A stretch of 47,237 bases of DNA from the NCBI GenBank assembly GCA_013607635.1, contig VCAY01000008.1, positions 1 through 47,237 of the forward strand. Reading direction: 5' to 3'. This DNA comes from Campylobacterota bacterium (GTDB lineage: Bacteria > Campylobacterota > Campylobacteria > Campylobacterales > Sulfurimonadaceae). The notes under the pieces are model-generated. The model was not told the DNA's origin. It worked only from the letters and a program-made list of their open reading frames with translations, and did no database searches. Below, piece by piece: positions 28,713 through 41,958 of the stretch (positions are counted from its first letter, which is position 1; the number at the start of each line of letters is the position of its first letter). The position numbers were made by a program, and so were the translations under genes.

Positions 28713-29711
28713 ATGAAAACAGCTGTTTGTATAGTGTTTTTGATGCTCATATTTTTGAGTGGTTGTGCACAAAAAGTTGCCATAAGAGCACTTGAACCTG
28801 CTGCGGTTGACAGAATAGCCGATACCAAAAAAATTACACTCACCTATTTTGAAAATGATCGTGTAGGGCTTTCTGATAAGATCGAGGCTAACCTTGCAGG
28901 TTTTAGACTTGACAATAAAAAATATTTTACCATTGTCAGCCGTAAAGATTTTAATAAAATTTTAAATGAGCAAAAACTTCAAAACAGTGGTTTGGTGGAT
29001 CCAGGTGATGCCGTGACGGTTGGAAATATCATTGGTGCGCAGGCGATTATATCGGGTCGTGTGAGCCAACCGACACTGCAAGACAGCTATTTTTACGAGT
29101 CGCGTGTACGGTGTGCCGATAAAAAGTGTGAGTCTCTGCAGTATTATAATGTCCGTTGTATGAAAAGAGTGGCAGGGCTTGCGGCAGAGATCAGGATTGT
29201 AGATGTGCAAAAGGGTGATATTATCTTTGCAGATACTCTTAGTAAAGGGGCAACATATAAGCACTGCTCTGATGATTCAATGGCTTTACCTTCAAAAGAG
29301 ATGGCAGCACATTCACTTGCAAATGGCATCGCTGATGATTTTACTTACAAGCTTACTCCGCACTATCGCCACTTTGATGTAGAGCTATTGGAAGATCCGG
29401 ATATCGATTATACTGACACTCAAGAAAAACTCTTAGAAGTTGCTTTGAAATATATTGAGCAAAACAGGTTTGCAAAAGCAGAGAAACTTTTGATCGATCT
29501 TATCGATGCAACAAATCAGAAAAGTTATGTCCCTTTTTATAATCTTGGTGTTATCAAAGAGGCACAGGGGAATTATCAAGAGGCAAAAGAGTACTATGGG
29601 TATGCAGATGATTTGATGGTAGAGCCGGTTGAGCAGATTAACGCAGCTGTGCTTCGCATAGATAGGCTTATAGCTAAAAGGGAAAAATCGATGGAGCAGA
29701 TAAACAGATGA
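28713..29711 (+). CDS. CsgG/HfaB-family lipoprotein with C-terminal TPR-like region
   Basis: Lipobox FLSGC; KYFTIVSRKDFNKILNEQKLQNSGLVDPGDAVTVGNIIGAQAIISGRV is CsgG-like; C-terminal FYNLGVIKEAQGNYQEAKEYYGYA TPR. Confidence 0.8.
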   Translation: MKTAVCIVFLMLIFLSGCAQKVAIRALEPAAVDRIADTKKITLTYFENDRVGLSDKIEANLAGFRLDNKKYFTIVSRKDFNKILNEQKLQNSGLVDPGDAVTVGNIIGAQAIISGRVSQPTLQDSYFYESRVRCADKKCESLQYYNVRCMKRVAGLAAEIRIVDVQKGDIIFADTLSKGATYKHCSDDSMALPSKEMAAHSLANGIADDFTYKLTPHYRHFDVELLEDPDIDYTDTQEKLLEVALKYIEQNRFAKAEKLLIDLIDATNQKSYVPFYNLGVIKEAQGNYQEAKEYYGYADDLMVEPVEQINAAVLRIDRLIAKREKSMEQINR

Positions 29712-38346: not shown

Positions 38347-39525
38347 ATGGATAATCTGTTTGATAGCAATGAAGCAAAAAAGTGTAAAAGTAGTCTTGAT
38401 CTGAGAGTTTATACTTCTAATCTTTTGGGTGCAAGTGATGAGTTGGTGCTGCATGGCGGGGGCAATACTTCTCTCAAGGGTAACATCGATGGTGTGGATG
38501 TGCTTTATGTTAAAGGCAGTGGCTGGAATTTGGCTGATATCAAAGCTGAGGGGTTTGCTCCTGTGCGCCTTGATGTGTTGCAAGAGATGGCAAAGCTAGA
38601 GCATCTCAGCGATGCGCAGATGGTTGCGCGCCAAAAAGAGGCGATGCTTAACTCTTCTGCACCTAACCCTTCTGTAGAAGCGATACTGCATGCGATCATT
38701 CCGTTTAAGTTTGTCAATCATACCCATGCCGATGCGGTGGTGACGATCTCTAACTCGGTGCGTGGCAAAGAGATTATAAAAGAGTTGTATCCAAACTTCT
38801 TGATCGTTGATTATGTGATGCCGGGCTTTGAGCTTGCGCATAAAGTGTATGAGATAACACAAGATATTGACTGGAATGAGATAGAGGGGATTGTTCTGCA
38901 CCATCACGGGATTTTTACTTTTGATGATGATGCCCAAAAATCGTACAATAAAATGATCGATGCCGTGAGTAAAGCGGAGCAGTTTTTAGATCAAAATGCT
39001 GCAGTGGAGATTGTGCATAAATACACTCACAGTGATTGTGATATTATGCGTGTGGTTAAAACGATGTCGGAGTATAAAGGGGATGAGGTGCACATCGCGA
39101 TCAATCAAACCCCACTGGCGGTTTTTTACGCAGCACAACCAAATTTAAGGGAGTTTGCGTCTCGTGGGGTACTCACACCGGAGCATATCATCCGCACCAA
39201 ACGCGTACCGCTGATTATGGAAGATACTGATCTTATTGGTGGGATTGAGCGCTATATCGAAGCGTACAAAGAGTACTTTAACAAATACGCTACTGATGAG
39301 GTGATGCTTAACCCTGCACCAAATTATATGATCATCAAAAATTTGGCAGTTGTGAGTTTTGGACGCAGTAAAGCTGAGGCTAAAATTGTGCATGATATTG
39401 TGGAGCATACAATGTTGGCAGTACTGCGAGCTGACAAGCTTGGAGGGTATCAAAGTATCAGCGAAAAAAAGAGCTTTACTATGGAGTACTGGGATTTAGA
39501 GCAGGCGAAATTAAAAAAATTATAA
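38347..39525 (+). CDS. class II aldolase/adducin family protein (COG3347/RhaD N-domain-like)
   Basis: LVLHGGGNTSLKG, VKGSGWNLADI, FVNHTHADAVVTIS and IVLHHHGIFTF metal-site motifs. Confidence 0.88.
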   Translation: MDNLFDSNEAKKCKSSLDLRVYTSNLLGASDELVLHGGGNTSLKGNIDGVDVLYVKGSGWNLADIKAEGFAPVRLDVLQEMAKLEHLSDAQMVARQKEAMLNSSAPNPSVEAILHAIIPFKFVNHTHADAVVTISNSVRGKEIIKELYPNFLIVDYVMPGFELAHKVYEITQDIDWNEIEGIVLHHHGIFTFDDDAQKSYNKMIDAVSKAEQFLDQNAAVEIVHKYTHSDCDIMRVVKTMSEYKGDEVHIAINQTPLAVFYAAQPNLREFASRGVLTPEHIIRTKRVPLIMEDTDLIGGIERYIEAYKEYFNKYATDEVMLNPAPNYMIIKNLAVVSFGRSKAEAKIVHDIVEHTMLAVLRADKLGGYQSISEKKSFTMEYWDLEQAKLKKL

Positions 39526-39533
39526 TGTTATGG

Positions 39534-39539
39534 TACAAT
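39534..39539 (+). promoter_or_regulatory. candidate extended -10 promoter upstream of the kinase
   Basis: TGGTACAAT just downstream of the aldolase stop codon. Confidence 0.45.
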
Positions 39540-39591
39540 TTCTTTGAAACAAGATTAATGCTTGAGGGTAGCTCCCTCATCTCAACACTGT

Positions 39592-39628
39592 AAGCCCTGC
39601 TTCCTTATTGGGAGTGGGGCTTTTTTTT
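39592..39628 (+). terminator. strong intrinsic terminator in the kinase leader
   Basis: AAGCCCTGCTTCC-TTATT-GGGAGTGGGGCTT, 13-bp stem (including wobbles) followed by a T-run; ends about 14 nt before the ATG at 39643. Confidence 0.85.
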
Positions 39629-39642
39629 GAGAGATTGAAAAA

Positions 39643-41211
39643 ATGAAACAAAAATATTTATTAGCAATAGATGCCGGAACGGGTAGTATCCGTGCAGCCC
39701 TTTTTGATACGAACGGTAATCAGATCGCTGTTTCACAAAAAGAGTGGGTACACTTGGAAGAAGAGGGTGTGGCTAACTCGATGGGGTTTGATTTTACCAC
39801 CAACTGGAACCTTGCATGTAACTGCATTCGTGAGGTTATCAAAACCGCCATGATCGATCCAAAAGATATCTTGGCACTCTCAGCCACCTCGATGCGTGAG
39901 GGGATTGTGGTGTATGACAAAGATGGCAGGGAGCTTTGGGGTGTTGCCAATGTCGATGCAAGAGCGAGCAAAGAGGTGAAATATCTTAAAGAACACTTCC
40001 CCGAAATAGAGGAGCAGTTTTACGAACAAAGTGGGCAGACCTTTGCCCTTGGTGCTTTGCCGAGATTGATGTGGCTGAAAAACAACCGCCCTGAGATCTA
40101 TGAAAAAGTAGATAAAATCTCGATGATCGGAGATTGGGTGCTGGCAAAGCTCAGCAGTGTGATCGCAAGTGATCCAAGCAATGGTGGTACAACCGGTATT
40201 TTTGATCTGCAAAAGCGCAACTGGGCAAGAGGGATGGCACAAAAAGTTGGGATCAAAGATGGTATCTTTCCACCTGTGTATGAGGTAGGTACACCTATCG
40301 GCAGTGTTACCAAAGAGGCAAGTGAGCTAACTTCGTTAGATGTAGCAACAAAAGTTGTGATGGGTGGCGGTGATGTGCAACTTGGTAGTGCCGGTCTTGG
40401 TGTTGTGGAGGTTGGACAGGTTGCGATCCTCGGTGGGAGCTTTTGGCAACAGGTTGTGAACATCCCATCTGCAACCAAACCACCAAAAGATATGGCAATT
40501 CGTGTCAATCCCCATGTGATCGATGGACTCTCTCAAGCGGAGGGGATCACCTTTTTTAGCGGTCTTGTGATGCGATGGTTTCGAGATGCATTTTGTGAGC
40601 TTGAAAAGCTTGAAGCACAAGAGCGCGGGTGTGATGTGTATGAAATTTTGGAGCAAAAAGCTACTAGTGTACCGGCTGGGAGTTATGAGATACTGCCAAT
40701 CTTTTCAGACTCTATGAAGTATGGCAAATGGTACCATGCAGCACCAAGTTTTTTAAACCTTGGGATCGATAGTGAGGCATACAATCGTATCTCGATGTTT
40801 CGCGCTTTGGAGGAAAACGCGGCGATCGTCTCAAGCATCAACTTAGAGAAGATAGAAAAGTTTAGCGGCGTTACATGTAACGAGATCGTCTTTGCAGGTG
40901 GGGCGAGTAAAGGCAAACTTTGGTCACAGATTGTCGCAGATGTTTTGGGCAAAAAGGTAAAAATTCCAAAAGTAACCGAAGCAACAGCCCTTGGAGCTGC
41001 CATGGCAGCAGGTGTTGGTGTGGGAGTGTTTGCAAGTTTGGCTGAAGCTGCTAAAAAGCTAGTTATTTGGGAGAGAGAATATCTGCCAAATAAGCAAAAC
41101 AAACAGGTGTATGACACCCTAAAAACCAAGTGGCAAAAAGCATACCAAGCGCAATTAAAGCTGGTAGATGATAATATCACAACATCGATGTGGAAGGCTC
41201 CTGGGCTTTGA
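39643..41211 (+). CDS. FGGY-family carbohydrate kinase, LsrK (autoinducer-2 kinase)-like
   Basis: LAIDAGTGSIRAALFDTNGNQIAVSQKEWVHL; MGGGDVQLGSAGLGVV; GSFWQQVVN; MRWFRDAFC; YHAAPSFLNL; C-terminus TTSMWKAPGL matches remembered LsrK sequence closely. Confidence 0.88.
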   Translation: MKQKYLLAIDAGTGSIRAALFDTNGNQIAVSQKEWVHLEEEGVANSMGFDFTTNWNLACNCIREVIKTAMIDPKDILALSATSMREGIVVYDKDGRELWGVANVDARASKEVKYLKEHFPEIEEQFYEQSGQTFALGALPRLMWLKNNRPEIYEKVDKISMIGDWVLAKLSSVIASDPSNGGTTGIFDLQKRNWARGMAQKVGIKDGIFPPVYEVGTPIGSVTKEASELTSLDVATKVVMGGGDVQLGSAGLGVVEVGQVAILGGSFWQQVVNIPSATKPPKDMAIRVNPHVIDGLSQAEGITFFSGLVMRWFRDAFCELEKLEAQERGCDVYEILEQKATSVPAGSYEILPIFSDSMKYGKWYHAAPSFLNLGIDSEAYNRISMFRALEENAAIVSSINLEKIEKFSGVTCNEIVFAGGASKGKLWSQIVADVLGKKVKIPKVTEATALGAAMAAGVGVGVFASLAEAAKKLVIWEREYLPNKQNKQVYDTLKTKWQKAYQAQLKLVDDNITTSMWKAPGL

Positions 41212-41263
41212 CAATTTTTTTATAAAAATGTATAATATCCAAAAGACAACTTTGAGGTGAAGT

Positions 41264-41551
41264 GTGACAAAAGTGGTTGGATTAAGAGAACTTGCTCGCA
41301 ACACAAGCATACTCGATCAGTTTGATTATATCGATATCGAAGATAAAAAAACACATGAGTACAAAGGTGTTTTTATCTCTGCAAAATATGCCAAAGAGTT
41401 TAAAGAGATGCTCGAGAGAAAGCTCTCTGATGAGAATCAAAAGCAAGTAGATGCGATTATGCAGTTTTCCGGTATAGCAAATGGAGCATTGAGAGATATA
41501 GATACAAAAGATGATATCAAAAGAGAGTACGCTAAGAGGTTTAGTGAGTGA
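41264..41551 (+). CDS. antitoxin of a type II toxin-antitoxin module
   Basis: Small ORF whose stop overlaps the downstream PIN-domain gene start; own TATAAT at 41231..41236. Confidence 0.65.
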   Translation: MTKVVGLRELARNTSILDQFDYIDIEDKKTHEYKGVFISAKYAKEFKEMLERKLSDENQKQVDAIMQFSGIANGALRDIDTKDDIKREYAKRFSE

Positions 41552-41958
41552 GTCGTAAAATCTTTTTTGATACTAATGTTGTGCTCGATCTTTTAGATGA
41601 GACAAGGGTGGGTAATAAGTTTATGGAACCACTTTTAAATAAGATTGCTAAAGAGAACTATATAGTGGTGTTAAGTGAGGATATGTTAAGCACGCTCTAC
41701 TATATCATCCCAGATAAAAAGAGAGTTTTAGAGTTTTTAAAAACAGTGTTGCAATATTGGCAGATAGTTTCATACGGCACAGAGGTGATAAAAGAGGCTA
41801 TAAATGTTGCACAAGAGAAGCAAGTTGATCTTGAGGATCTTTTGCAGTGTTTGTGCGCGAAGGCAAATGGATGTGAGATGATACTCACAAATGATAAAAA
41901 ATTTTATAATTGTGGGACTAAGATTATGAGTCCCAAACAGTTTTTGGAGAGAAATTGA
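41548..41958 (+). CDS. PIN-domain toxin (VapC-like)
   Basis: KIFFDTNVVLDLLDE, VDLEDLLQCLCAKANGCEMILTNDKKF acidic PIN motifs; GTG start overlaps antitoxin stop. Confidence 0.82.
   Translation: MSRKIFFDTNVVLDLLDETRVGNKFMEPLLNKIAKENYIVVLSEDMLSTLYYIIPDKKRVLEFLKTVLQYWQIVSYGTEVIKEAINVAQEKQVDLEDLLQCLCAKANGCEMILTNDKKFYNCGTKIMSPKQFLERN

Follow-up and report, generated by a model that had tools for sequence, protein, structure and literature searches.

The Ibs/Sib systems are multi-copy pairs of a small hydrophobic toxin peptide and an antisense RNA antitoxin. In Escherichia coli, the antitoxins of tisB, shoB, zor, and dinQ are encoded opposite to, or divergently from, their toxins (PMC4147584), and in the aapA/IsoA systems of Helicobacter pylori the antitoxin likewise occupies the opposite strand (PMC6733600). 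The antitoxin-type RNA NikS/IsoB, also from H. pylori, belongs to a type I system that has probably degenerated (PMC8322730). In type III operons, infrequent read-through yields the toxin and sets the antitoxin excess (PMC8167048, PMC4147584).

Here, we describe an element lying between an aldolase gene and a kinase gene that is most likely an orphan type I-like antitoxin RNA, its terminator now residing in the aldolase–kinase operon. Sequence comparison suggests that the complete relatives of this element constitute a previously undescribed toxin–antitoxin module that is common in Sulfurimonas and its relatives. The complete module is akin to aapA/IsoA in its occurrence in Campylobacterota, its several chromosomal copies, its short hydrophobic peptide, and its ~80-nt RNA antitoxin (PMC6733600, PMC8322730). 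In aapA/IsoA, a long-distance fold keeps the toxin mRNA inert, and for the module a comparable fold is predicted from sequence. It differs from aapA/IsoA in that IsoA is made from the opposite strand, whereas the module's RNA is encoded upstream on the same strand, ends at an intrinsic terminator, and is antisense by way of an inverted copy of the start region. Compared by description, AapA peptides are 30 aa long and those of the module ~20 aa. Ibs/Sib and tisB/istR share with the module a small hydrophobic toxin peptide and an RNA antitoxin that pairs with the toxin mRNA, but their antitoxins are opposite-strand or divergent rather than an upstream, same-strand, terminated leader. The type III operons ToxIN, AbiQ/AntiQ, and CptIN resemble the module in having one promoter, an antitoxin RNA encoded first, and a Rho-independent terminator (PMC8167048, PMC4147584). 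Type III antitoxins, however, consist of repeats in tandem and bind a protein endoribonuclease, whereas the RNAs of the module that were printed out hold no tandem repeats, the peptides examined, at ~20 aa, are no RNases, and the RNA is antisense to the peptide mRNA. A literature search, made largely outside the subscription journals, found no report linking a type I toxin–antitoxin system to Sulfurimonas.

The element in the aldolase–kinase gap

The window is a 47,237-nt stretch, VCAY01000008.1, of an incomplete draft assembly. Features of the element and of its two host genes are collected in Table 1. Terminator T1, with 13 pairs, is the strongest of 13 terminators in 15 kb, and the fold of the 90-nt leader beats all 200 of 200 shuffles (z −3.4). 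The short RNA matches a covariance model of the element (see below) at 1.3e-7. No Rfam family reaches its cut-off in the window element, and a search of the window and five homologous loci at gathering score returned nothing beyond tRNAs; we rejected matches to NsiR1, PyrR, and L10_leader, which were sub-threshold and driven mostly by the terminator hairpin.

Table 1. Positions of the element and its host genes in the window
Feature	Position	Strand	Basis or remark
Class II aldolase-like gene, upstream host	38347..39525	+	PRK08324-type models, aldolase part, below cut-offs
P1, extended −10 promoter TGGTACAAT	39531..39539	+	sequence
Antitoxin-type sRNA, predicted ~84 nt	39545..39628	+	start ±3 nt, inferred from the −10
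Helix i antisense segment AACAAGATTAATGCTT	39548..39563	+	16-nt perfect complement of the toxin ORF of G027 (L032)
First hairpin, TGAGGG-TAGCT-CCCTCA	39563..39579	+	sequence; leader fold versus shuffles
Helix ii, second pairing segment TCTCAACACTG	39580..39590	+	partner is the toxin-mRNA leader in complete copies
T1, intrinsic terminator hairpin, 13 bp	39592..39622	+	terminator scan; covarying helix 3
T1 T-run (T8)	39621..39628	+	ends 14 nt 5' of the kinase ATG at 39643
Junction without toxin half (leader, ORF, second terminator); doubles as kinase 5' leader	39629..39642	+	
Autoinducer-2 kinase-like FGGY kinase gene, downstream host	39643..41211	+	NF008187, 867 bits, cut-off 528

The original prediction, made from the letters of the window alone, had read this gap as an attenuator or riboswitch-like leader of an LsrK-like kinase or, alternatively, as a source of a ~85-nt embedded sRNA. 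Its anatomy stands: a sequence check places the extended −10, the first hairpin, and the 13-bp terminator with its T-run where it had put them, and its statement that kinase mRNA must cross the terminator holds as an anatomical consequence. The competing pairing that it offered as an antitermination switch (39565–39569 with 39594–39598) can be drawn, but its energy does not support an equilibrium switch: it lies 18.7 kcal/mol above the best fold, with a probability of ~1e-13.

Directly 3' of the kinase gene, at 41264–41958, is a two-gene unit whose second protein carries a PIN domain (PF01850, 2.8e-12). It is preceded by a predicted promoter at 41208–41236 that matches at 12 of 12 positions, and it looks like a type II VapBC-like toxin–antitoxin pair.

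A recurring module with a small hydrophobic ORF

BLASTN against 60 relatives yielded a full match in one genome, G027 (87%), and partial matches in several others. One layout is shared across differing neighborhoods: in G027 it lies in the aldolase–kinase gap, in G022 between convergent genes, and, with genes assigned by eye, beside priA in two genomes and between dapF and prfA in another. Of 135 genomes of the genus, 63 match a covariance model built from the core of the element (E ≤ 0.01); many of these carry several copies, up to six in a single genome, and about 75 matches in the genus have E ≤ 1.2e-5. The genome of the window has three matches, the window element and two complete copies encoding the peptides MLLRLLVLLIIAGYFTKLF (L099) and MNIDLIHTLGYLAIAIIYLMFAFKH (L080). 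Beyond the genus, where matches near 1e-5 include plain terminators (three loci), we counted only copies checked by eye; these fall in at least four further families of the order, with L151, L152, L153, L159, L160, L161, L163, L166, and L173 as examples. A pattern scan of named genomes recovered Sulfurimonas MAGs, one Sulfurimonas single-cell genome, two Helicobacteraceae MAGs, Arcobacter caeni, and Arcobacter sp. UBA7394, which makes Sulfurimonas the most likely genus of the window. Spread by viruses or plasmids was considered and set aside: one exact pattern run on viral contigs and one query of plasmid records each gave no match.

Complete copies consist of a promoter, an RNA of ~80–105 nt, a strong terminator with T8–9, a G-rich leader (GTGGGTAGTGTTGGGTGGGAGTG or nearly identical in the relatives read), a Shine–Dalgarno (SD) site, a hydrophobic ORF of ~20 codons, and a second terminator. 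Among 71 parsed copies, every one has a T-run of at least 7, and 63 have the hydrophobic ORF (13–33 aa, median 19), which is followed by a second terminator-like hairpin in 62 of the 63. Hairpins of the GAGG-CTGATTA-CCTC type occupy the position of the first hairpin in other copies. Thus, the embedded-sRNA option of the original prediction gains support from a promoter–RNA–terminator unit that is common to relatives and usually stands alone beside unrelated genes.

Simple rules sort the peptides into family A (n = 41, like LLKLVILLLILGFLTKLL), family B (n = 13, like LFNKIVLIMLILMFLFAVRLY), and family C (n = 9, like MPDLNLHTVGYLLIATIYIVFAFKQ); outside the genus there is a fourth type, MDYLNFSIAVIAVIITLFREEIREVLFKLGK. 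The peptides tested have no NCBIfam, Pfam, or PADLOC match. In family A, mismatch by codon position is 0.37/0.15/0.55, compared with 0.64/0.58/0.63 after the stop. This bias, flat beyond the stop codon, argues that the ORF is under coding selection, and a short hydrophobic peptide with coding-type substitution is what a type I toxin would display. The peptide could also be a benign small membrane protein.

Predicted antisense pairing and the probable source of the toxin mRNA

The short RNA is complementary to the presumptive toxin mRNA in two segments. Specifically, helix i joins the 5' part of the RNA to the toxin start codon or early codons, and helix ii joins the segment before the terminator to the toxin-mRNA leader. 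Cognate duplexes average −38.2 kcal/mol versus −25.2 kcal/mol when partners are swapped (z −24; 0 of 20,000 permutations), and the cognate advantage persists within each peptide family (z −17, −6.6, and −6.3). The longest Watson–Crick run to the start region is 10.2 nt for cognate and 5.7 nt for non-cognate pairs (z 28). Both tests are conservative, because related copies improve the swapped pairs. In the covariance-model alignment, 94% of cells are paired, compared with at most 57% when the partner is slid, and 371 double-change cells are present versus 106 in shuffles. Covariance-model hits and structure counts alike favour the model; the alignment was fitted to it, while the energy and run tests make no use of the alignment. 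The terminator, helix 3, also covaries: in 71 distinct copies, 98.6% of cells are paired, and 12 of the 13 pairs show changes on both sides. Helices 1 and 2 covary in this alignment as well. The original prediction had called for a covariation analysis of homologous regions; covariation is strong, and the element is conserved in relatives. We considered a mobile inverted-repeat element in place of an RNA, but the end sequences vary by copy and co-vary, which RNA pairing fits better than terminal repeats.

The pairing is predicted to close the ribosome site. The SD and start are unpaired at 0.41 and 0.40 when the toxin half is folded by itself; with the short RNA in trans, or in the full-length RNA, these values are 0.27 and 0.15. 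A tandem triple (L066, G108:C10, 1454–2172, minus strand) holds three complete modules that differ from one another in both peptide and antisense segments; it is a natural experiment in pair specificity.

As in type III operons, one promoter precedes the RNA. In 98% of the 63 complete copies, P1 has a −10 that matches at 5 or more of 6 positions, compared with 63% of shuffles. A second −10 after the T-run is not enriched in these copies (16% versus 12% in shuffles), nor is an antisense −10 over the ORF (63% versus 67%) or over the leader (6% versus 37%). Because the comparison relied on simple shuffles and scored the −10 crudely, a second promoter of low strength may exist. One candidate, a second promoter within the T-run (TAAAAT or TATACT in some copies), was rejected: there is no enrichment over shuffles, and in five copies the T-run abuts the leader, leaving no space for it. 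An opposite-strand antitoxin in the style of IsoA was likewise rejected, as there is no conserved antisense promoter, and the conserved terminator lies on the toxin strand. Taken together, the near-universal P1, the lack of an enriched second or opposite-strand −10, and the T-run–leader junctions point to read-through of the antitoxin transcript as the probable source of the toxin mRNA.

The sequences establish the module's architecture, covariation, coding signal, and distribution, along with the absence of the toxin half from the window copy as assembled. The notion is that, in an intact copy, P1 makes a short RNA that ends at the strong intrinsic terminator. Polymerases that read through would also transcribe the leader, the SD site, and the ORF for the ~20-codon hydrophobic membrane peptide, continuing to the second terminator. 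The short RNA, in excess, would pair with the leader and the start or early codons of the toxin mRNA and close the ribosome site. The read-through RNA would pair these segments in cis and stay inert until processed. Thus, the short RNA would act in trans once the toxin mRNA had been processed, while the full-length RNA would silence itself. The window retains only P1, the RNA, and T1, which lie between the aldolase and kinase genes; the toxin half would have been deleted, and T1 would throttle transcription into the kinase gene as a by-product. We infer expression, toxicity, read-through as the toxin-mRNA source, processing, and the kinase effect from these features.

A probable orphan copy and its alternatives

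The complete copy of G027 sits in the same gap, which spans 285 nt there and 117 nt in the window, where it ends just after T1. The RNA unit is 83% identical between the two (90 of 108 columns, promoter included), whereas fourfold-degenerate sites are only 35% identical in the aldolase gene and 41% in the kinase gene. Helix i of the window, AACAAGATTAATGCTT, is a 16-nt perfect complement of the G027 toxin ORF, compared with at most 6 nt for the toxins of its own genome. In helix ii, CAACACT of the window is matched by AGTGTTG in the leader of G027. Duplex prediction between the window RNA and the G027 toxin mRNA gives −44.1, rank 1 of 63; the two toxins of its own genome rank 34 and 58 of 63, no better than average. 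This identity and complementarity argue for loss of the toxin half: either the loss is recent, or selection has continued to act on the RNA. The ORF is lost or broken and the RNA unit kept in 8 of the 71 copies, the window and seven others. The asymmetry is no more than suggestive, since toxin-only copies would escape an RNA-based search. In one toxin-less copy, L085 (G133:C58, 1575–1701), the RNA unit lies directly 5' of a lipoprotein gene (MKSSLKLLLRASAVVLLMSGCTQ...) that has a homologue at position 28743 of the window. We dismissed capture of the lipoprotein start by this RNA, as the same resemblance exists in a relative that lacks the element.

A cis attenuator or riboswitch by which a metabolite controls the LsrK-like kinase, the first option of the original prediction, is very improbable. 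The terminator does lie 14 nt 5' of the kinase ATG with little space for another promoter. However, the element is beside unrelated genes in most genomes, and most relatives examined lack it in the aldolase–kinase gap: the kinase start directly follows the aldolase stop in many Sulfurimonas, and other gaps hold unrelated repeats. In addition, there is no Rfam riboswitch match, and the proposed antiterminator pairing is ~19 kcal/mol uphill. A switch dedicated to the kinase also fits poorly with the RNA's conserved partner, the small hydrophobic ORF, which the window lacks. The gaps themselves are varied. Eight of them carry a different palindromic repeat of the AGGACAAATCCTCC...GGTCTGAGCCT type, which marks the gap as an insertion hot spot. 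At three further loci, the kinase gene is preceded by an ORF ending KVYNYIKNNPLKAGLxDERxFSKYE, REP-associated transposase-like by eye, which is followed by tandem REP-like repeats (GTCGGCACTGAAGTACCGATTCCGGG).

Quite unlikely, though less so, is a single-transcript locus in which the short RNA is an attenuated leader, the complementarity is an intramolecular fold, and an attenuator controls a membrane peptide in place of a toxin–antitoxin pair. Every pairing can indeed form in cis as one long hairpin, there is a single promoter, and the SD and start are predicted to be closed in the full-length RNA. Against this stand the terminator, covariant and complete in all copies, from which free short RNA should accumulate; the prediction that these segments, supplied in trans, also shut the toxin half; and the eight copies that kept the RNA unit without an intact ORF, a pattern that a toxin would lead one to expect but that drift could produce as well. 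A further candidate, 6S RNA, was brought to mind by the long closed hairpin that complete copies form; it was rejected because RF00013 matches none of 60 genomes of the genus and because a T9 terminator inside the RNA does not suit a 6S RNA. The RF00013 search does give matches in 5 of 14 control genomes, which suggests that the 6S RNA of the genus is divergent or absent. The remaining alternative, itself improbable but the least so of the three, is compatible with the orphan-antitoxin reading of the element's origin: the window copy may have been co-opted in a NikS-like manner, either to act in trans as an sRNA on new targets or to serve as a fixed attenuator of the kinase. It retains an intact promoter, antisense segment, and terminator, and the contrast between its conservation and that of the fourfold sites is consistent with co-option, but recent toxin loss accounts for the same conservation. 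Regulation of the kinase by base pairing was set aside, since pairing with the kinase start (−23.0) is not clearly above shuffles (−19.5 ± 3.4). NikS itself differs in having demonstrated trans targets and in its origin from an opposite-strand pair (PMC8322730).

An orphan antitoxin RNA thus remains the preferred reading of the window, and for the family we lean, by a narrow measure, toward a toxin–antitoxin class that is type III in its operon logic and type I in its antisense logic. Both products, a terminated antisense antitoxin and a read-through toxin mRNA, would come from a single promoter and a single intrinsic terminator, with terminator efficiency alone setting their ratio. The class would span several Campylobacterota families and at least four peptide types, and it could lose its toxin, so that, as in the window, the RNA is left as a free regulator. 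In the type I systems of the sources cited here, toxin and antitoxin are opposite-strand or divergent, and the module departs from that arrangement. It accounts for an RNA and peptide family with no Rfam, Pfam, or NCBIfam match, and it supplies dozens of natural co-varying pair variants for the study of specificity and cross-talk. For the kinase, the consequence would be modest: a terminator gained by insertion, not a dedicated sensor. Finally, judged from its sequence, the window appears to be a clear case of an antitoxin RNA that has outlived its toxin.
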